64,000 nucleotides of DNA from Ferruginibacter albus (lineage in GTDB: Bacteria; Bacteroidota; Bacteroidia; Chitinophagales; Chitinophagaceae), in NCBI RefSeq assembly GCF_020042285.1, contig NZ_CP083388.1:2506001-2570000 (forward strand). Direction: 5' to 3'. The notes beneath the pieces were generated by a model. The model was not told where the DNA came from. It worked only from the letters and a program-made list of their open reading frames with translations, and did no database searches. Shown one piece after another: positions 34,250 to 47,894 of the stretch. Position 1 is the first letter of the stretch, and every line of letters starts with the position of its first letter. The position numbers were made by a program, and so were the translations under genes.

Positions 34250-34288
34250 TTGTGTCACTCACTTGTACTTTTTATTCTTTATTAAGCT
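34250..34288 (+). repeat. Dispersed TTGTGTCACTCACTT repeat, copy 1
   Basis: A 39-base element beginning TTGTGTCACTCACTT and ending TTATTAAGCT. A 40-base relative occurs at 46657-46696. It lies downstream of the phoH terminator and does not overlap a supported reading frame. Confidence 0.5.
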
Positions 34289-38679: not shown

Positions 38680-39273
38680 TTATTGAGCATCGTCAATAAA
38701 GCCCCAATCTGTTTGTAAGCTTTTTAATCTTTCAGGAGACAATTGTAGCTCATTATAATGTCCTGCATTTTGCTTTTGTCGAAAAGCTTCATAAACAGTA
38801 ACAGCGCATGCCACAGAAATATTCAACGATTTTATTATACCAACCTGAGGAATGATAAAATTACCATCGCACATAGCTAATAATTCATCGCTTACTCCAC
38901 TATGTTCATTACCAAATATTAAGGCAACAGGTTCCGTCAAATTCAATTCATGTAAAGAAACAGCGTCACTGCTTAAATGCGTTGCATAAATTTTTTTATA
39001 GTTTTTACGCAATTGTACAAAGCATTCATTGGCATCCGTAAACTGGTGAATGGTTAACCATTTGGCTGCACTGGAAGAACTTTTTGCTCCCCATTTTTTA
39101 TGCGGTGGTATTTTATTGTTGAGTATATAAATATCCTGTATTCCTACTGCATCACAGGTACGCATAACCGCAGAAATATTATGCGGATCGAAAACATTTT
39201 CCAGCACAACGGTTAAACCGGGTTGGCGCTTGTTTAATACTGAGGTAAGGCGATCGTTACGTTCAGGAGTCAT
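38680..39273 (-). CDS. trmH: tRNA (guanosine-2'-O-)-methyltransferase, TrmH-like
   Basis: A 197-residue SPOUT methyltransferase. It starts close to TrmH of E. coli (TPERNDRLTSVLNKRQPGLTVVLENV), followed by PHNISAVMRTCDAVG, and later FGNEHSGVS and SLNISVACAVTVYEAFRQ, the knotted SAM-binding region. It should methylate G18 of tRNAs. Its ATG overlaps the hisIE stop (TAATG), so it is translated as the last gene of the his operon. Confidence 0.9.
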   Translation of the reverse strand: MTPERNDRLTSVLNKRQPGLTVVLENVFDPHNISAVMRTCDAVGIQDIYILNNKIPPHKKWGAKSSSSAAKWLTIHQFTDANECFVQLRKNYKKIYATHLSSDAVSLHELNLTEPVALIFGNEHSGVSDELLAMCDGNFIIPQVGIIKSLNISVACAVTVYEAFRQKQNAGHYNELQLSPERLKSLQTDWGFIDDAQ

Positions 39274-39866
39274 TATTTATGGCGTTCTTTTAATATAGCA
39301 ATAATATCTTCCAGCTTAAATCCTTTTGCCTGCAACAATATTAAATAATGAAACAATAAGTCTGCTGCCTCATTCTTAAATAATTCATCGTTATTATCCT
39401 TTGCTTCAATTACTAACTCTACTGCTTCTTCTCCTACTTTTTGCGCCAACTTATTAATTCCTTTTGCAAATAATGATGCAGTGTATGATTTTTCTGTCGG
39501 ATTATTTTTTCTATCGCTGATAATATTTTCTAATTGAGATAAGAAATCATTGGAAACATTTTTTTCATCCCAGCAGGTATCAGCGCCGGTATGACAAACA
39601 GGTCCAACAGGTTCAGCTTTTATTAATAAGGTATCATTATCACAATCCACTTTAATGTCTTTCAACAATAAAAAATTCCCACTCTCTTCACCTTTTGTCC
39701 ACAAACGGTTTTTACTGCGACTAAAGAAAGTTACCTTGTTCAATTCTTTGGTCTTTGTCAAAGCTTCTTCATTCATGAAGCCCAGCATTAATACTTTATT
39801 AGTAACGGCATCCTGCACAATTGCAGGAACCAAACCATCGGTATATTTTGCAAAATCTATTTTCAT
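39273..39866 (-). CDS. hisI: Bifunctional phosphoribosyl-AMP cyclohydrolase / phosphoribosyl-ATP pyrophosphatase
   Basis: A 197-residue HisIE fusion that catalyses steps 2 and 3 of histidine synthesis. The cyclohydrolase is N-terminal (VTFFSRSKNRLWTKGEESGN, then DCDNDTLL and CHTGADTCW for the metal site) and the pyrophosphatase C-terminal (EKSYTASLFAKGINKLAQKVGEEAVE). Length and order are as in other HisIE proteins. It is preceded by a small membrane ORF with a 33-base gap and is coupled to trmH. Confidence 0.96.
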   Translation of the reverse strand: MKIDFAKYTDGLVPAIVQDAVTNKVLMLGFMNEEALTKTKELNKVTFFSRSKNRLWTKGEESGNFLLLKDIKVDCDNDTLLIKAEPVGPVCHTGADTCWDEKNVSNDFLSQLENIISDRKNNPTEKSYTASLFAKGINKLAQKVGEEAVELVIEAKDNNDELFKNEAADLLFHYLILLQAKGFKLEDIIAILKERHK

Positions 39867-39899
39867 TATTATAATTATTTTGTAACGATCATTTGTACT

Positions 39900-40091
39900 C
39901 TATTCATCCTTAGTTGTGTCACTCATTTCATCTATTTGATCATTATTCGTCTTATTTTTTAATAGTTGAATCAACTCTTCCTGTTTATTTAGCATTTGCT
40001 CATGCCGGTTTTCTCTACGAGCTCTGCTTTTATCATTAACAGATTTAAAAATATAAATAGCAATTGCAAGCCCCAATAAAATTAAAATCAT
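39900..40091 (-). CDS. Small membrane protein in the his operon
   Basis: A 63-residue protein: one membrane helix at about 2-15 and a long charged, coiled tail ([21 protein letters not shown]). It is not a known histidine enzyme. Its ATG overlaps the hisF stop codon (ATGA), which strongly suggests that it is translated as part of the operon. Its 3' end carries a GTTGTGTCACTCAT stretch resembling the dispersed repeats, so part of its coding sequence may have been recruited from a repeat. Function unknown. Confidence 0.65.
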
Positions 40092-40846
40092 ACCCGAACA
40101 TTTACATCATTTACCGATAAATATTCTTTCAATTCAGGAATACCAATTTCTTTATAATGAAAGATGCTTGCTGCTAAAGCCGCATCAGCATTGGCATTTT
40201 CAAACACTTCTTTAAAATGCTCCATTTTCCCGGCTCCTCCGCTTGCTATTACCGGAACAGAAAGCATATTCGATAAGATACCTGTTATATCCAATGCAAA
40301 GCCACCTTTTGTTCCATCATTATTCATTGATGTAAGCAATATTTCTCCTGCGCCTAATTCAACTGCTTGCTTTGCCCAGTCAATAGCTTTGGTTTCTGTT
40401 TTTGTTCTTCCACCATTTAAGTAAACATACCATTCGCCGTCCTCTTCTTTTTTTGTATCAATTGCCAAAACCACACATTGACTACCAAATGCTTTGCTCA
40501 GATCGTTTATTAACTGTGGATTTTTATAGGCTGATGTATTTACTGAAACCTTGTCTGCTCCATTTTTCAATAACACTGAAACGTCTTCTACTGTTGATAT
40601 TCCACCACCCACTGTAAACGGAATATTTATGGCAGCAGCTACCCGTTTAACTAATTCAACTAACGTTTTACGTTTTTCAACAGTAGCAGTAATATCTAAA
40701 AACACTAATTCATCTGCACCTTGCTGCGAGTATAGCATTGCCAGTTCAACAGGATCTCCTGCATCACGAATATCAACAAAGTTTACACCCTTAACGGTTC
40801 TTCCTTCTTTAATATCCAAACATGGTATGATTCTCTTTGTTAACAC
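40088..40846 (-). CDS. hisF: Imidazole glycerol phosphate synthase, cyclase subunit
   Basis: A 252-residue TIM barrel that makes IGP and AICAR from PRFAR with ammonia from HisH. The catalytic Asp in [17 protein letters not shown] and the second Asp in [14 protein letters not shown], plus [14 protein letters not shown], are all present. It lies downstream of hisA, after an 82-base gap holding an AT-rich inverted repeat, and is coupled to the small ORF. Confidence 0.97.
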
Positions 40847-40928
40847 CTTTGTTTAATTAATAATTAAGAATTTTTTCAAGCCGTTGAGCTGTTACAATTA
40901 TGGACAAACTTTCCACCTTAAACAATTA

Positions 40929-41645
40929 TCAATTTTTAATTGTTAATTGTTCCAACGTAATTCTCCCTTCATAAATAGCTTTCCCGATAATCGCTCCGCT
41001 ACAACCAATTTCTTTTAATTGAATAACGTCTTCCATTTTACTAACTCCACCACTTGCGATCAAACTCACTTCAGGATGTTGTTCCATTATTTTTTCATAA
41101 AGCTCAATCGATGGACCTTGCAATACGCCATCTTTAGAAATATCCGTACAAAAAATATTGTTTACTCCTAACGCGATCATCTTCCCGATAAAACTGAAAA
41201 TATCAATCCCTCCATCTTCCAACCAACCGCTGATCTTTATTTTTTCATCCAATACATCGGCACCAATTAAAAATTTATCCGCACCAAACTCCAGCAACCA
41301 CTCTTCCAATACTTGTGGTTGCTTTACTGCTAAGCTACCAATTGTAACGATCGCCGCTCCTGCATTAATAATATTTCCTACATCAGTAATGGTCTTTACA
41401 CCTCCGCCAAAATCGATGATCAATTTTGTTTGTTTAACAATTGCTTCCAGCACGTTTAGGTTTACGATCTTTCCGGCTTTTGCTCCATCTAAGTCCACTA
41501 CATGCAGTCGCTTTATTCCTGCATCTTCAAATTGTTTTGCTACTTCAACAGGATTATCATTATACACTTTCTGTTGTGCGTAATCGCCTTTTGTAAGACG
41601 AACACATTTACCATTGATTATATCTATTGCCGGAATGATTTCCAT
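40929..41645 (-). CDS. hisA: ProFAR isomerase
   Basis: A 238-residue TIM barrel catalysing isomerisation of ProFAR to PRFAR. The catalytic Asp near the start (PAIDIINGKCVRLTKGDY) and the second in FCTDISKDGVLQGPS are both present. Homologous to HisF, with the usual length. It follows hisH after a hairpin-bearing gap of 57 bases. Confidence 0.97.
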   Translation of the reverse strand: MEIIPAIDIINGKCVRLTKGDYAQQKVYNDNPVEVAKQFEDAGIKRLHVVDLDGAKAGKIVNLNVLEAIVKQTKLIIDFGGGVKTITDVGNIINAGAAIVTIGSLAVKQPQVLEEWLLEFGADKFLIGADVLDEKIKISGWLEDGGIDIFSFIGKMIALGVNNIFCTDISKDGVLQGPSIELYEKIMEQHPEVSLIASGGVSKMEDVIQLKEIGCSGAIIGKAIYEGRITLEQLTIKN

Positions 41646-41658
41646 TATTTATTTTTTT

Positions 41659-41703
41659 GCCGGGAAGGCGGGAAGATGAAAAACGACTTACCGTCTTTCC
41701 GGC
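41659..41703. repeat. REP-like hairpin between hisH and hisA
   Basis: GCCGGGAAGGCGG (41659-41671) pairs with CCGTCTTTCCGGC (41691-41703) with two wobble pairs. The hairpin touches the hisH stop. On the transcript strand it is followed by A rather than T, so it is not a terminator. It may protect the mRNA or be a mobile repeat. Confidence 0.5.
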
Positions 41704-42290
41704 TATTTAATATTTATAAAATTCTTTAAAATTGTTTCGCCAATCGTTCCTGATTTTTCAGGATGGAATTGTACCGCATAGAAATTATCTTTCTGCAATG
41801 CAGAACTGTAGGGCAAAACATAATTAGTTGTCGCTACAGTTTCCTTACACAGTGCTGCATAATAGCTATGAACAAAATAAACATACGCATCATTGGGCAA
41901 GTTTGCAAACAATGGCGATTTGTAATCATAGATATTATTCCATCCGATCTGTGGCACTTTAACGTCCTTTGAAGGAAACAATTTTACGACAGTGTCAAAT
42001 ATTCCTAAACATCTCGTATCTCCTTCTTCGGAATGATTGCATAATAATTGTAATCCGAGGCAAATACCCAACACCGGCTGCTTTAACGAAACAATGAGTC
42101 TATCTAACTCACGCTCTTTTAAATATTGCATAGCCGCATTCGCATGTCCAACACCGGGAAAGATAACTTTATCTGCTTTTATTATTTCATCAGCATTGTC
42201 TGTCACAATTGCGTTTACACCTAACCGTTGCAAAGCGTATAACACGCTTTGCACATTGCCTGCATTGTATTTTATAATTGCGATACTCAC
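41703..42290 (-). CDS. hisH: Imidazole glycerol phosphate synthase, glutaminase subunit
   Basis: A 195-residue class I glutamine amidotransferase that feeds ammonia to HisF. The nucleophile Cys77 lies in GICLGLQLL, the oxyanion loop around PGVGHA, and the His/Glu of the triad in VQFHPEKSG near 175. It overlaps hisB by four bases (ATGA). Confidence 0.97.
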
Positions 42291-43432
42291 AGCACTCCTT
42301 TTGTTGAGGGTAATGAATTATTATTAATATCTCTTTTAACTGCCATTTTAATTGCCTTTGCAAACGCTTTGAAAATAGCTTCTATTTTATGATGCTCATT
42401 ATCACCTTCGGCTTTGATATTGAGATTTGCTTTTGCTGCATCACTGAATGATTTAAAGAAATGGAAGAACATCTCTGTCGGCATTTCTCCAATCTTTTCT
42501 CTTTTAAATTCAGCTTCCCAAACGATCCAGTTTCTTCCACCGAAATCAATAGCAACTTGTGCCAAGCAATCATCCATTGGCAATAAAAAGCCATATCGTT
42601 CTATGCCTTTCTTATTACCTAATGCTTTTAAAAATGCTTCGCCTAAAGCAATCCCTATGTCTTCTATCGTGTGGTGTTCATCAATATGCAGATCTCCTTT
42701 ACATTCAACATTCAAATCAATACTTCCATGACGGGCAATTTGATCCAGCATGTGATCAAAAAATGCTAACCCCGTTTTTATATCAGCTTTTCCTGTTCCA
42801 TCTAAATTTAGCTCAATATCGATCTTTGTTTCATTGGTATTTCTTGTATGCTTTACTATTCGCGGGGGTAATTTTAAAAATTCATAGATATCCTTCCAGT
42901 TGGGTGTTTCCAACGCTACAGTATCTTTTCGAAGTGTTTCTATAGCATCTTTAATTTCTTTTGCTCCCAATGAAACATCATTACTTAACCAAATGGCTTT
43001 ACAACCTAAATTCTTTGCCAATTGAACATCGGTTATTCTATCGCCAATAACAAAAGAATTCGCAAGATCGTATTCAGGATTGTTGATGAATTTAGTTAAC
43101 ATTGCTGTACCCGGCTTACGCGTAGGTGCATTATCTTTTGCAAAAGTTCTATCAATAAATACATCATCAAACTGTATCCCTTCGTTTGATAAGCTATTGA
43201 GAATAAAATTTTGAACCGGCAAAAAGGTTTCTTCCGGAAAAGATGCAGTTCCTAATCCATCCTGGTTGCTTACCATCACCAGCTTAAAATCCAGTTCTAC
43301 AGCTATTCTTGATAAATAACTGAATACACCCGGATAAAAAACAAGTTTATCAAATGAATCTATTTGATAAGTTGGCGGTGCTTCTTTTATTAAAACACCA
43401 TCTCTGTCTATAAACAATATCTTCTTACTCAT
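42287..43432 (-). CDS. hisB: Bifunctional histidinol-phosphatase / imidazoleglycerol-phosphate dehydratase
   Basis: A 381-residue fusion catalysing steps 7 and 9. The N-terminal HAD phosphatase has FIDRDGVLI (Asp8, Asp10) and [17 protein letters not shown]. The C-terminal dehydratase has the twin histidine motifs [12 protein letters not shown] and [14 protein letters not shown] and the conserved GFLLPMDD. The zinc site between them looks intact. It overlaps hisC by 8 bases. Confidence 0.97.
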
Positions 43433-44474
43433 ATTTATTCAATAAGTTTAGTAATTGTTTGTTTTCTTCCGGCGTGCCGATGGTGATGCGCAAACAATTT
43501 TCACACATTATTTCTTTACTTCTGTTACGAACGATAACACCATTGCCTGCCAGGTAATCATATAACTTATCGGCATCATCTACTTTCATTAAAAAGAAAT
43601 TAGCATCGCTTGGATAAATAGTTTGTACAAAAGAGAAGTTTAATAATTCTTTTGCAAGATCTTCTCTCTCTGCTACAACTTCTTTGATCCAATCGTTCAC
43701 CACTCCAGTATTTACTAAAGCATCCAATGCCAGCATCTGCGAAGCTTTGTTCACATTATACGGCGGCTTTACTTTATTAAACACATCTATTATATCCAAC
43801 GATGCGTAAGCAAGTCCCAATCGTAAAGCCGCTAATCCCCAGGCTTTCGATAAAGTTTGCATTACAATTAAATTAGAGTATTCTGTCAGCTCCTGTATAA
43901 AAGATTTTTGCGACGAATAGTTAATGTATGCTTCATCAATGATAATGATACCCGGAAAATTATTTAACAGTAGTTCTACATCACTTCTATTCATATTATT
44001 TCCTGTGGGATTATTAGGAGAACACACAAAAAGAAGTTTTGTATTTTCATCTACTGCATTTAAAATACCTTCTACATCTAACTGAAAATTGGGCAATAGA
44101 TTTACTTTTTTAATGGCTACATCATTAATATTAGCGCTTACTTCATACATTCCATATGTAGGCGGACAAACGATCACATTATCCTTTGCAGGGTTGCAAA
44201 AAATACGATATGCAAGGTCAATTACTTCATCACTCCCGTTACCAATAAAAATATTTTCAGCAGGAACACCCTTTATCTTAGCCAACTGAAATTTCAACTG
44301 CCATTGCAATGGATCAGGATAACGATTAAATGCATCTACTAGCGGTGAGCCGTAAGCATTTTCATTCGCATCCAAAAAAACAGAAGCCTCACCGGTAAAC
44401 TCGTGTCTTGCCGATGAATAAGGCTTCAGCTTTTTTATATTATCTCTTATTAAATTTTCCAATTCAAATTTCAT
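43425..44474 (-). CDS. hisC: Histidinol-phosphate aminotransferase
   Basis: A 349-residue PLP enzyme of fold type I. The start of the core is [12 protein letters not shown], the PLP lysine lies in [12 protein letters not shown] near 210, and the C-terminal segment [13 protein letters not shown] binds the phosphate. It overlaps hisB and follows hisD by a single base. Confidence 0.97.
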
Positions 44475-44475
44475 C

Positions 44476-45759
44476 TTACAAATTTTTTAACCTGATACTT
44501 ACTGCGTTCTTATGAGCATCTAATCCTTCTGCAGCAGCCATTGCTTCTACAGCGCTTCCGATATTTTTAATTCCTTCTTTATTTAATTGTTGAAAGGTTA
44601 TCTTCTTTACAAAACTATCTAACGATACGCCGCTGTATGCCTTTGCATAGCCATTAGTCGGCAATGTGTGATTGGTGCCAGATGCATAATCCCCCACACT
44701 CTCAGGAGAATAATGTCCCAAGAAAACACTTCCTGCATTTACCACGAGTTCTGATAATTTCTTAGCATTATCACTGGCAATTATTAAATGCTCTGCTGCA
44801 TATTCATTCAAAAGATCAAAAGCTGTATCCGCATTTTCCATCACAACAAAACGACTATTTGCCAACGATTTTTCTGCAATCTCTTTTCGGGATAATAACG
44901 ATAACTGTATTTTGATCTCTTTTTTTACTTTATCAATTATTGTTTGTGAATTAGCCACCAACAAAACCTGGCTATCTACACCATGTTCTGCCTGGCTTAA
45001 CAGATCGGCCGCCACAAAAGCTGCTTCAGAAGTTTCATCAGCATATACTGCTACTTCACTTGGGCCCGCCGGCATGTCGATCGCAATACCATCTTTATTT
45101 ATTAATTGCTTAGCGCAGGTTACATATTGATTACCCGGGCCAAAAATTTTGTATACCTGCGATACAGTTTTCGTTCCGTAAGCCATTGCCGCAATTGCCT
45201 GCACGCCACCGACCTTATAAATATTTTTTAATCCTATCAATTGCGCTACATATAATATTACAGGATTTACTTTGCCTTTTTTATCTGAAGGAGTACAAAC
45301 TACGATCTCGCTACAACCCGCTATAGTAGCAGGTATTCCTAGCATCAACAATGTAGAAAATAAAGGCGCTGTGCCTCCCGGAATATACAATCCAACTTTT
45401 TGAATAGCAACCGGTTTACGCCAACATAAAACATGCTTAGTAGTTTGAATTTGCCTTACTGCCTCCTTTTGACTTTCGTGAAAAACCGTAATATTCTTCT
45501 TGGCTAATTCGATTGCTTCTTTTAATTCGTCACTAACTAAACCAATTGCTTCATTAATTTCTGCTTCAGTTACTTTTAAATCACTCAATTCAACGCCATC
45601 AAATTTTGTTGTGTACTTTTTTATTGCAGCATCGCCATGCTGCTTCACATCTTCCAATATAGCAGCAACAGTTGCTTCCAACGATTTATTATCGATCGTT
45701 GGTCGCTTTAAAATTTCGTTCCATTGCGCTTGAGATGGATTTATAAAAACATTATTCAT
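44476..45759 (-). CDS. hisD: Histidinol dehydrogenase
   Basis: A 427-residue zinc enzyme that oxidises histidinol to histidine with two NAD+. Recognisable parts are the N-terminal KYTTKFDG, the central FGPGNQYVTCAKQLI and DMPAGPSEVAVYAD, the glutamine of LLSQAEHGVDSQ, and the late LPTNGYAKAYSGVSLDSF. The ATG overlaps the hisG stop (TAATG). Confidence 0.97.
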   Translation of the reverse strand: MNNVFINPSQAQWNEILKRPTIDNKSLEATVAAILEDVKQHGDAAIKKYTTKFDGVELSDLKVTEAEINEAIGLVSDELKEAIELAKKNITVFHESQKEAVRQIQTTKHVLCWRKPVAIQKVGLYIPGGTAPLFSTLLMLGIPATIAGCSEIVVCTPSDKKGKVNPVILYVAQLIGLKNIYKVGGVQAIAAMAYGTKTVSQVYKIFGPGNQYVTCAKQLINKDGIAIDMPAGPSEVAVYADETSEAAFVAADLLSQAEHGVDSQVLLVANSQTIIDKVKKEIKIQLSLLSRKEIAEKSLANSRFVVMENADTAFDLLNEYAAEHLIIASDNAKKLSELVVNAGSVFLGHYSPESVGDYASGTNHTLPTNGYAKAYSGVSLDSFVKKITFQQLNKEGIKNIGSAVEAMAAAEGLDAHKNAVSIRLKNL

Positions 45760-46610
45760 TAGACTATCATTTTTTCAATCGGCATTACAATAATACCTTC
45801 CGCATCAAATTGTTTTAGTTTTTCAATTACTTCCCAAAAATCATTTTCATTCACTACGCTTTGCACACTGCTCCAGCCTTCTTCTGCCAAAGGCACTACA
45901 GTCGGGCTTTTCATGCCGGGCAACAACGAAAAAATATTTTTCAATTGTTTGTTCGGCGCGTTCAACATAATGTACTTATTATTCTTTGCCGTTTTAACAG
46001 AGTTAATACGTAACAATAATTTTTCCAGTATTGCTTTCTTTTCTGCAGATAAATTTTTATTAGCAGTTAATACGGCTTCTGATTTTAAAATAACTTCTAC
46101 TTCTTTCAACCCATTGGTGAAAAGAGTGCTGCCGCTACTAACTAAATCACAAATGGCATCTGCCAAACCAATGCTTGGCGCTATTTCTACAGATCCACTG
46201 ATCTCATGCACTTCCGCATTTACTTTATTATCGGCTAAATATTTTTGCAACAACACGGAATAACTTGTAGCGATCTTCAATCCATCCAGGTCTTTTACAG
46301 AATTATACTCAATAGATTTTGGAACAGCAATACTTAAGCGACACTTTCCAAATCCTAAGCGATAAACCAAATCAATATCCTTCGCTTTTTCAAGTAAAAC
46401 ATTTTCACCAACAATTCCTATATCTGCCACATTATCATAAACGTATTGCGGAATATCATCATCACGCAAAAAATAAACTTCTATAGGAAAATTAAAGGCA
46501 ACCGCTTTTAATTGTTTGTTGCCATTGTTCAACTCAATTCCACATTCTTTTAAAAGCTTGATGGAATCTTCGTACAGTCTTCCTGATTTTTGAATTGCAA
46601 TTTTCAGCAT
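45759..46610 (-). CDS. hisG: ATP phosphoribosyltransferase, long form
   Basis: A 283-residue long-form HisG that starts histidine synthesis from ATP and PRPP. It has the N-terminal IAIQKSGRLYEDSIKLL, the PRPP loop region DLVSSGSTLFTNGLKE, and a C-terminal regulatory domain (220-283) that binds histidine for feedback inhibition. No HisZ is needed with this type. It is the first structural gene; its expression should depend on the attenuator upstream. Confidence 0.97.
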   Translation of the reverse strand: MLKIAIQKSGRLYEDSIKLLKECGIELNNGNKQLKAVAFNFPIEVYFLRDDDIPQYVYDNVADIGIVGENVLLEKAKDIDLVYRLGFGKCRLSIAVPKSIEYNSVKDLDGLKIATSYSVLLQKYLADNKVNAEVHEISGSVEIAPSIGLADAICDLVSSGSTLFTNGLKEVEVILKSEAVLTANKNLSAEKKAILEKLLLRINSVKTAKNNKYIMLNAPNKQLKNIFSLLPGMKSPTVVPLAEEGWSSVQSVVNENDFWEVIEKLKQFDAEGIIVMPIEKMIV

Positions 46611-46656: not shown

Positions 46657-46696
46657 TTGTGTCACTCACTTATGCTTTTTCAGCCTTTATTCAGCT
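46657..46696 (+). repeat. Dispersed TTGTGTCACTCACTT repeat, copy 2
   Basis: A 40-base relative of 34250-34288: both start TTGTGTCACTCACTT and both contain CTTTTT, CTTTATT and AGCT blocks in order. It lies between hisG and the attenuator terminator and abuts the A-tract of the latter. Confidence 0.5.
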
Positions 46697-46730
46697 AAAA
46701 AACAAAGGGCTCACCTTAGTAAGCCCTTTG
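46697..46730 (-). terminator. Attenuator terminator of the his operon
   Basis: On the transcript strand CAAAGGGCTTAC (from 46730) pairs with GTGAGCCCTTTG (to 46703), 12 pairs with one wobble, around the loop TAAG, and is followed by six T (46702-46697). The left arm also contains GCTTAC, which can pair with GTAAGC at the end of the leader peptide ORF, giving the alternative antiterminator fold. Confidence 0.85.
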
Positions 46731-46762
46731 CAAGTTATGTTCAGCACATACAAATCAAAATA

Positions 46763-46779
46763 GCTTACCCGTTGGCAAG
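46763..46779 (-). promoter_or_regulatory. Pause and antiterminator segments of the his attenuator
   Basis: CTTGCC (46779-46774) can pair with GGTAAG (46769-46764), giving a pause hairpin around AACG. GGTAAGC (46769-46763) can instead pair with GCTTAC (46724-46719) of the terminator arm. A ribosome stalled on the His codons would cover CTTGCC and free the second segment; a ribosome at the leader stop codon would cover both, so the terminator forms. Confidence 0.75.
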
Positions 46780-46815
46780 TGTATGATGATGGTGTGTATG
46801 TGTATTTTGTATCAT
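46765..46815 (-). CDS. hisL: His operon leader peptide
   Basis: A 16-residue ORF encoding MIQNTHTHHHHTLANG and stopping at TAA. Five of six consecutive codons in HTHHHH are His codons (46800-46783), which is far above chance for a short ORF placed exactly before a histidine operon. It sits about 35 bases before the attenuator terminator and 155 bases before hisG. In enteric bacteria the equivalent peptide senses charged tRNA-His through ribosome stalling. The peptide itself probably has no other role. It is transcribed from a promoter a few bases upstream, so the mRNA is nearly leaderless. Confidence 0.85.
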   Translation of the reverse strand: MIQNTHTHHHHTLANG

Positions 46816-46823
46816 TTGCGATG

Positions 46824-46855
46824 CAAAGAAAATACGAAGATTTTATTTTTCCAAA
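46824..46855 (-). promoter_or_regulatory. Promoter of the his operon
   Basis: On the minus strand TTTG (46855-46852 region) is followed after about 20 bases by TTTCTTTG (46831-46824), one mismatch from TAnnTTTG. The leader ATG begins eight bases further on. Confidence 0.5.
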
Positions 46856-46877: not shown

Positions 46878-47894
46878 TTAAAGTGAAATATCCTGAAGAC
46901 CTAAGCCTGGTAAGGAATTGTATAAAATACTGCCATTATCAAAATTTATACCTTCTCCCATATTTTCTGACAATAGTAAAGTTCCATCCATATCAACATA
47001 ATCTAATAAAGGTGCTAATTGTGCAATAGCTGCAGTCCCAACAGCCGTTTCATTCATACAGCCGACCATTACTTTTAAACCTAATTCTCGTGCTTTTGTG
47101 ATCATTCTTCGTGCAGGTGTTATGCCGCTACATTTTGTAAGCTTAATATTAATACCATGAAAATGATTTACACATTTCTCCACATCAGCTTCTATAACAC
47201 AAGATTCATCTGCAATAACCGGCAATGCAGACTCTTTGAATAAAATCTTCATCCCTTGCCAATCATCTTTTGCCAAGGGTTGTTCTACAAACTCAACTCC
47301 CAACGCTTTTAATTGAGGTATTTTATTCAATGCCTGTTCCAATGTCCATGCTGCATTGGCATCAACCCTAAAAATCGCATTAGTGTGTTTTCTTAATTCA
47401 GCTACTGTTTCAATATCATTTTCAAAACCTACTTTTATTTTATAGATCGGCCAAGGTTTTTCTTTTATCTTTTCAACCATCTTTTCTATTGTATCAATGC
47501 CAATCGTATAATCTGTAAGTGGTGCTTTTGAGATATCTAAATTCCACAACTCATGCAATTGCTTTCTTTTCAGTTTCCCATATAGATCCCATCCTGCCAT
47601 ATCCAACGCACACACCAAAAAATTATTAGCAGGATATAAATGATGCAGGTAATGCCAATAACGTTCAGGGTCAGTAAAGGAAAATTTTTCTACAAATTGT
47701 TTTTTTCGTTCCAGGTCTTCTATCATCTTTTCTACAGTGATATTATAATAGTTGATCGCCGGCGCTTCGCCATACCCCTTGACACCAAAGTGTTTCAGCG
47801 CTACTATTAAGGTAGGTTGATGAGTTTTAGTGCCTTTTGAGATAGTAAAAGGATATTTAAATGGAAGATTAAATTGTTGGTATGAAACTTTCAT
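46878..47894 (-). CDS. Dipeptide epimerase, enolase superfamily
   Basis: A 338-residue enolase-superfamily protein of the muconate-lactonising subgroup. The N-terminal capping domain is followed by a barrel with the catalytic Lys in YKIKVG, metal ligands in FRVDANAAW, VEFVEQPL and IADESC, and the second Lys in NIKLTKCSG. MNETAVGTAAIAQ near the C-terminus fits L-Ala-D/L-Glu epimerases, which recycle or convert murein-type dipeptides. Dipeptide specificity is inferred from overall similarity. Transcribed leftward, it ends just before the his promoter. Confidence 0.85.
   Translation of the reverse strand: MKVSYQQFNLPFKYPFTISKGTKTHQPTLIVALKHFGVKGYGEAPAINYYNITVEKMIEDLERKKQFVEKFSFTDPERYWHYLHHLYPANNFLVCALDMAGWDLYGKLKRKQLHELWNLDISKAPLTDYTIGIDTIEKMVEKIKEKPWPIYKIKVGFENDIETVAELRKHTNAIFRVDANAAWTLEQALNKIPQLKALGVEFVEQPLAKDDWQGMKILFKESALPVIADESCVIEADVEKCVNHFHGINIKLTKCSGITPARRMITKARELGLKVMVGCMNETAVGTAAIAQLAPLLDYVDMDGTLLLSENMGEGINFDNGSILYNSLPGLGLQDISL

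Follow-up and report, generated by a model that had tools for sequence, protein, structure and literature searches.

Leader-peptide attenuation is a textbook mechanism. In the enteric his attenuator (hisL; RF00514), a short leader peptide with a run of histidines precedes mutually exclusive antiterminator and terminator structures ahead of hisG, which are formed by longer alternating helices. In the trp-type attenuator (trpL), four segments pair as 1:2, 2:3 and 3:4, with the leader stop codon near segment 2; in Sinorhizobium meliloti, the trpL leader peptide is translated from a leaderless mRNA. A comparative study by Vitreschak and others from 2004 reportedly predicted attenuation sites widely, and its abstract is said to mention some cases in Bacteroidetes/Chlorobi. 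Sharing both gene and phylum with the leader described below, a structured 5' element upstream of hisG was reported in F. psychrophilum in the main text of PMC9723704, where it is conserved in Flavobacteriaceae and without an Rfam match; the same main text presents strong indications that amino-acid operons are attenuated through leader peptides, and gives no hisG leader peptide or pairings. A further cis-regulatory RNA candidate of Bacteroidetes, the Bacteroid-trp motif (RF01692), appears in a list in PMC2864571, which also cites the study by Vitreschak and others.

We analysed a 64,000-nt stretch of Ferruginibacter albus DNA (the window), in which a short His-rich open reading frame and a set of alternative hairpins precede hisG. 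We regard this element, with a probability of roughly 0.92, as a ribosome-mediated transcription attenuator of the his operon that would sense the supply of His-tRNA. It resembles the enteric his attenuator in its short leader peptide with a His run and its exclusive antiterminator and terminator before hisG, and differs from it in being built of four segments, the second of which contains the stop codon, in probably starting (nearly) without a 5' leader, and in matching no Rfam model: cmscan gave no hit at E up to 1 (10 kb) or at E up to 10 (300 nt), RF00514 included. An earlier sequence-only reading had invoked the logic of the enteric his attenuator; attenuation as such is supported, and its form is a simple four-segment, trp-like one outside any Rfam family. 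From trpL proper it differs in sensing His rather than Trp and in controlling the his operon. RF01692, by its name a trp leader, is likewise a Bacteroidetes cis-regulatory RNA but belongs to another operon and was not matched here. That reading had further called such switches little documented in Bacteroidota, which is right, though they are not undocumented, given the F. psychrophilum reports (PMC9723704) and the listing of the Bacteroid-trp motif (PMC2864571). Since attenuation is classical and F. psychrophilum offers a precedent, the element represents a known mechanism and not a new kind. What the present sequence comparison adds is the four-segment anatomy, a conserved ribosome geometry, a phylum-wide spread with replaced segments, and a probable leaderless start; with no fitting Rfam model and little literature found, it supplies, for Bacteroidota, a concrete regulatory element of histidine biosynthesis that can be tested. 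The features of the locus are as follows.

46878-47894, minus strand: upstream gene, product resembling dipeptide epimerases/DgcA (from the window sequence)
46852-46855, minus strand: putative -33 element TTTG, 20 nt before the -7 box (sequence and inference)
46824-46831, minus strand: putative -7 box TTTCTTTG, 5 of 6 to TAnnTTTG, 8 nt before the hisL ATG (sequence)
46765-46815, minus strand: hisL leader ORF MIQNTHTHHHHTLANG with stop codon (sequence, relatives, phylum census)
46783-46800, minus strand: regulatory His codon run CAT ACA CAC CAT CAT CAT (sequence, CAT/CAC interchange in relatives)
46774-46779, minus strand: segment 1, CTTGCC, partner of segment 2 (paired in 91% of cells across 72 leaders)
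46763-46769, minus strand: segment 2, GGTAAGC, holding the leader stop TAA (conservation of the 2:3 core, spacing)
46719-46730, minus strand: segment 3, within the terminator 5' arm CAAAGGGCTTAC (pairing conservation, folding)
46703-46714, minus strand: segment 4, within the terminator 3' arm GTGAGCCCTTTG (12-bp stem, changes on both sides of 3:4 pairs)
46697-46702, minus strand: U run TTTTTT, predicted termination site (sequence, terminator in relatives)
45759-46610, minus strand: hisG, ATP phosphoribosyltransferase (NCBIfam TIGR00070 and TIGR03455)
39273-45759, minus strand: remaining operon hisD, hisC, hisB (bifunctional), hisH, hisA, hisF and hisIE (NCBIfam)

The hisL ORF (ATGATACAAAATACACATACACACCATCATCATACACTTGCCAACGGGTAA, 46815-46765 on the minus strand, coding MIQNTHTHHHHTLANG) comprises 16 codons before the stop, reading ATG ATA CAA AAT ACA CAT ACA CAC CAT CAT CAT ACA CTT GCC AAC GGG TAA. 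It is followed by GCAAAGGGCTTAC-TAAG-GTGAGCCCTTTG and then TTTTTT, the last base of which lies at 46697, such that the U run of the predicted terminator stands ~90 nt upstream of the hisG start. Downstream of the leader runs a complete co-directional hisGDCBHAF-IE operon, each gene of which was confirmed against NCBIfam. The DgcA-like gene upstream reads in the same direction as hisL and ends only ~60 nt before its ATG. The five His within six codons and the coordinates and pairings of 1:2, 2:3 and 3:4, with a 12-bp stem and six U, had all been given correctly in the sequence-only reading, to which we add that the 2:3 pairing is longer than it had stated (GGTAAGCT with AGGGCTTAC) and that one of the 1:2 pairs is a G-U. 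The His-run codon pattern by itself was uninformative in the source genome, where it occurred at 43 places.

A putative promoter and start site, together with the ribosome stalling, termination and response to histidine that we infer from the established mechanism, would act as follows. RNA polymerase would initiate only a few bases from the leader ATG, and hisL would be translated by a ribosome. When charged His-tRNA is scarce, the ribosome would stall in the His run, masking segment 1 and leaving segment 2 unpaired, upon which segment 2 could pair with segment 3 to form the antiterminator and the polymerase would continue into hisGDCBHAF-IE. When His-tRNA is plentiful, the ribosome would read on to the stop codon that segment 2 contains, hiding segments 1 and 2, so that 3:4 would pair and transcription would stop at the U run ahead of hisG. 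If no translation occurs, 1:2 is expected to form, and with it the terminator as well.

We computed the ORF, the conservation of its codons, the spacing, the alternative pairings with their conservation and covariation, and the operon context, and the leader anatomy so observed is far beyond chance. As relatives we took the best 80 matches to the HisG of the window (~67-88% identity, mostly Chitinophagaceae, with Ferruginibacter nearest), and a His-rich short ORF was found upstream of hisG in 78 of them, the exceptions being L038, where the contig ends inside the leader, and L085. The leader peptide usually follows the pattern M-x4-H-x-HHHH-x-LPxG, with conserved runs of 4-7 His, and the LPxG after the run is encoded by segment 1 (CTTACC) together with the first part of segment 2 (GGTARGC). 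Synonymous exchange of CAT and CAC is seen at the His positions, which argues for selection on the codon and not on the RNA alone. A terminator with a U run follows in 77 of 79 of the relatives' leaders, compared to 8% in shuffled sequence. The conservation by which the sequence-only reading had proposed to check its idea was found: relatives keep the His codons, the terminator, the antiterminator and the spacing, and most of the families sampled have the same elements in other sequences. In L085, ~200 nt upstream of hisG, the pairing segments are kept and one His codon is left, which speaks against the reading and makes this relative a natural test case of sensor loss.

The spacing in these leaders fits the dimensions of a ribosome, the front edge of which usually lies 12-14 nt from the A-site codon. 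Counted from the first base of the last His codon, segment 1 starts after 4-6 nt in 51 of 72 leaders and segment 2 after 15-17 nt in 49 of 72 (16 nt in the window). With this distance, stalling at the last His codons would let the ribosome hide segment 1 while segment 2 stays free. In 34 of 72 leaders, that of the window among them, translation ends at a stop codon 2 nt into segment 2, and in most others the stop comes some codons further on; given this position, a terminating ribosome would cover segment 2.

We quantified the pairings on an alignment of the 72 leaders that was built from sequence alone. The terminating structure (1:2 plus 3:4) had 93.8% of its cells paired, compared to 62% at best when the partner was slid, and changes on both sides occurred in 10 of its 18 pairs, including 7 of the 11 stem pairs of 3:4; RNAalifold recovered the 1:2 core and 3:4 unaided. 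For 2:3, 99.2% of cells were paired (42.5% at best when slid), rising to 100% in its six-pair core. Double changes in 2:3 were scarce inside Chitinophagaceae because segment 3, which must fit both 2 and 4, is nearly invariant there, and the covariation of 2:3 hence rests on the comparison between families. In folding, the alternatives came out as follows: the 124-nt leader folds with -38.8 kcal/mol (z = -4.9; none of 200 shuffles as good), the window RNA lacking segment 1 and ending before segment 4 adopts the 2:3 antiterminator (-16.9 kcal/mol, z = -4.1), and the RNA lacking segments 1 and 2 adopts the terminator (-25.1 kcal/mol). Once the window RNA is complete, 2:3 is less stable than 3:4, which counts against the reading and requires the antiterminator to win kinetically, like that of other attenuators. 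Part of Chitinophagaceae also shows an outer helix that joins the His codons to the sequence beyond segment 2; we do not claim it as a general feature, because its own pairing was overall no better than swapped pairing (own versus swapped, median fraction 0.39).

We then extended the search across the phylum. A covariance model built from the leader (R1) and scanned over Bacteroidota at E up to 0.01 matched in 70 of 395 genomes, and 12 of 13 plus-strand loci examined stand before hisG. As the segment sequences change, R1 serves poorly for a census beyond the family, and we used a census anchored on hisG instead, which found a HisG match in 171 of 198 genomes and analysed 90 upstream regions. 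Upstream of 73 of the 90 hisG genes lay a short ORF with 3 or more His among 8 residues, compared to 3.7% of shuffled regions and 4 of the 90 regions when reverse-complemented. Every sampled member of ten families with at least two members (f1, f2, f3, f4, f5, f8, f9, f17, f24 and f35) carried it, while in the same 90 regions it was absent in the families with the distant LPKGSL-type HisG and in f15 and f19. The letters of segments 2 and 3 differ by family, from GGTAAGC/GCTTACC in the window type to CTCAAGCG/CGTTTGAG in f5, GCCGGT/CCCGGC in f17, CAGGTAG/CTACCTG in f2 and GACGG/CCGTC in f4, and those of the other families sampled are unrelated to the window's. Nevertheless, in its fit to the segment 2 region, a leader's own segment 3 outdid 80% of other-family arms in 54 of 68 cases and 95% of them in 37 of 68; the protector hairpin 1:2 was scored in the Chitinophagaceae-type leaders. 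That the segments are replaced wholesale and yet usually retain their own 2:3 fit is the strongest argument for the attenuation mechanism. Overall, the census indicates that attenuation would be the usual mode of his operons in most families sampled.

Some His-rich leaders in the census look different. The f24 leaders (L190, L191, L194, L196, L230 and L232-L236) have many His codons upstream of hisG, for example VNRKNLHTTHLHHGVHHLHQGHHHA, frequently with a GTG start, and a hairpin terminator before hisG passed our test in 1 of 10 of them; they perhaps use a different, Rho-dependent mode. In f8, a second leader type (L154, L167, L172) ends in ..HHFHHSS*; a hairpin may span its stop codon, and these three showed no clear terminator before hisG.

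The putative promoter sits close to the leader. Of 76 Chitinophagaceae-type leaders, 48 have a perfect TAnnTTTG no more than 20 nt from their ATG, most often at a distance of 4-11 nt, compared to 9 of 199 control genes. The box of the window matches at 5 of 6 positions, and this imperfect match weighs against the reading. If the start site lies a few nucleotides past the -7 box, the leader mRNA would be (nearly) leaderless, and from this promoter position we consider the hisL mRNA probably so. It would then resemble S. meliloti trpL in translating its leader peptide from a leaderless mRNA, in another phylum and for another amino acid, and could offer a simple system for studying Shine-Dalgarno-independent coupling of ribosomes to RNA polymerase. 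Leaderless mRNAs are rare in the phylum, with 5.5% of mRNAs in F. psychrophilum (PMC9723704), and ~3.7% of mRNAs in B. thetaiotaomicron have a 5' UTR under 10 nt (PMC7366714). We tentatively suggest a wider picture, to which we give somewhat less than even odds: a phylum-wide His attenuator whose segments have been repeatedly replaced while the four-segment logic persisted, with leaders that are (nearly) leaderless, and with at least one family (f24) that lacks the terminator and takes an undescribed route.

Other explanations of the locus can be weighed against these data. As the DgcA-like gene is co-directional and ends just short of the leader ATG, the hairpin might be the terminator of that gene and the short ORF incidental. 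The gene is present at only 10 of the 72 loci, while ORF and terminator stay with hisG, so the leader element travels with hisG; moreover, the His codons and the 2:3 pairing are conserved. With the neighbour varying and the element remaining, we rejected this explanation, which is now extremely improbable. Structured RNA ahead of a biosynthetic gene could also point to a histidine-binding riboswitch or a T-box acting without leader translation, but the reading frame is conserved and the segment letters are replaced wholesale between families, unlike a binding pocket. The absence of an Rfam match and the synonymous variation at the His codons led us to reject it as well, and we leave it virtually no probability.

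Histidine could instead be sensed through the leader peptide, with control exerted on hisG translation or through Rho and not by an intrinsic terminator. The f24 leaders and some f8 leaders, His-rich and lacking a clear intrinsic terminator, speak for this, and suggest that other modes may exist in the phylum. For the window it is very unlikely, as it shares with nearly all close relatives a strong stem followed by a U run, and the terminator lies 91 nt ahead of hisG, leaving its start uncovered. That the His-rich peptide additionally acts in trans, for example by binding metal, would accord with the conservation of runs of 4-7 His and with the trans roles that have been assigned to the peptides of other attenuators (PMC7298713); the remainder of the peptide is dictated by segments 1 and 2 and differs from family to family as they do, and we consider such a second role highly unlikely. 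The ribosome-mediated attenuator remains our preferred reading of the locus.

A dispersed intergenic repeat was also seen at the his operon, with the core AGTGAGTGACACAA inside a looser conserved stretch of ~80 bp. The core occurs at 51 exact places genome-wide, compared to 0 for the reversed pattern, and in both orientations relative to genes. Copies in the window lie at 46657-46670, 39914-39927 and 34250-34263 (all minus strand), one of them between the his terminator and hisG and another directly before hisIE.

R1 matched a second place in the source genome (E = 1.8e-5; G000:C1:246225-246341, plus strand, or L112 1501-1617). The leader there is rich in Lys and Thr, (M)MNKKHTKTTKTFSQKEG, and is followed by GGAAGG / GCCTTCC / GGAAGGC and a U run. 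The next gene, at L112 1633-2622, we take from its sequence to be asd, aspartate-semialdehyde dehydrogenase. A literature search on a Lys/Thr attenuator before asd returned nothing relevant. A KHTK-type Lys/Thr-rich leader with a CCTTCC..GGAAGG-type hairpin precedes asd in ~17 of 30 Chitinophagaceae genomes, and the asd leader looks like a candidate Lys- or Lys/Thr-responsive attenuator of the same four-segment build.
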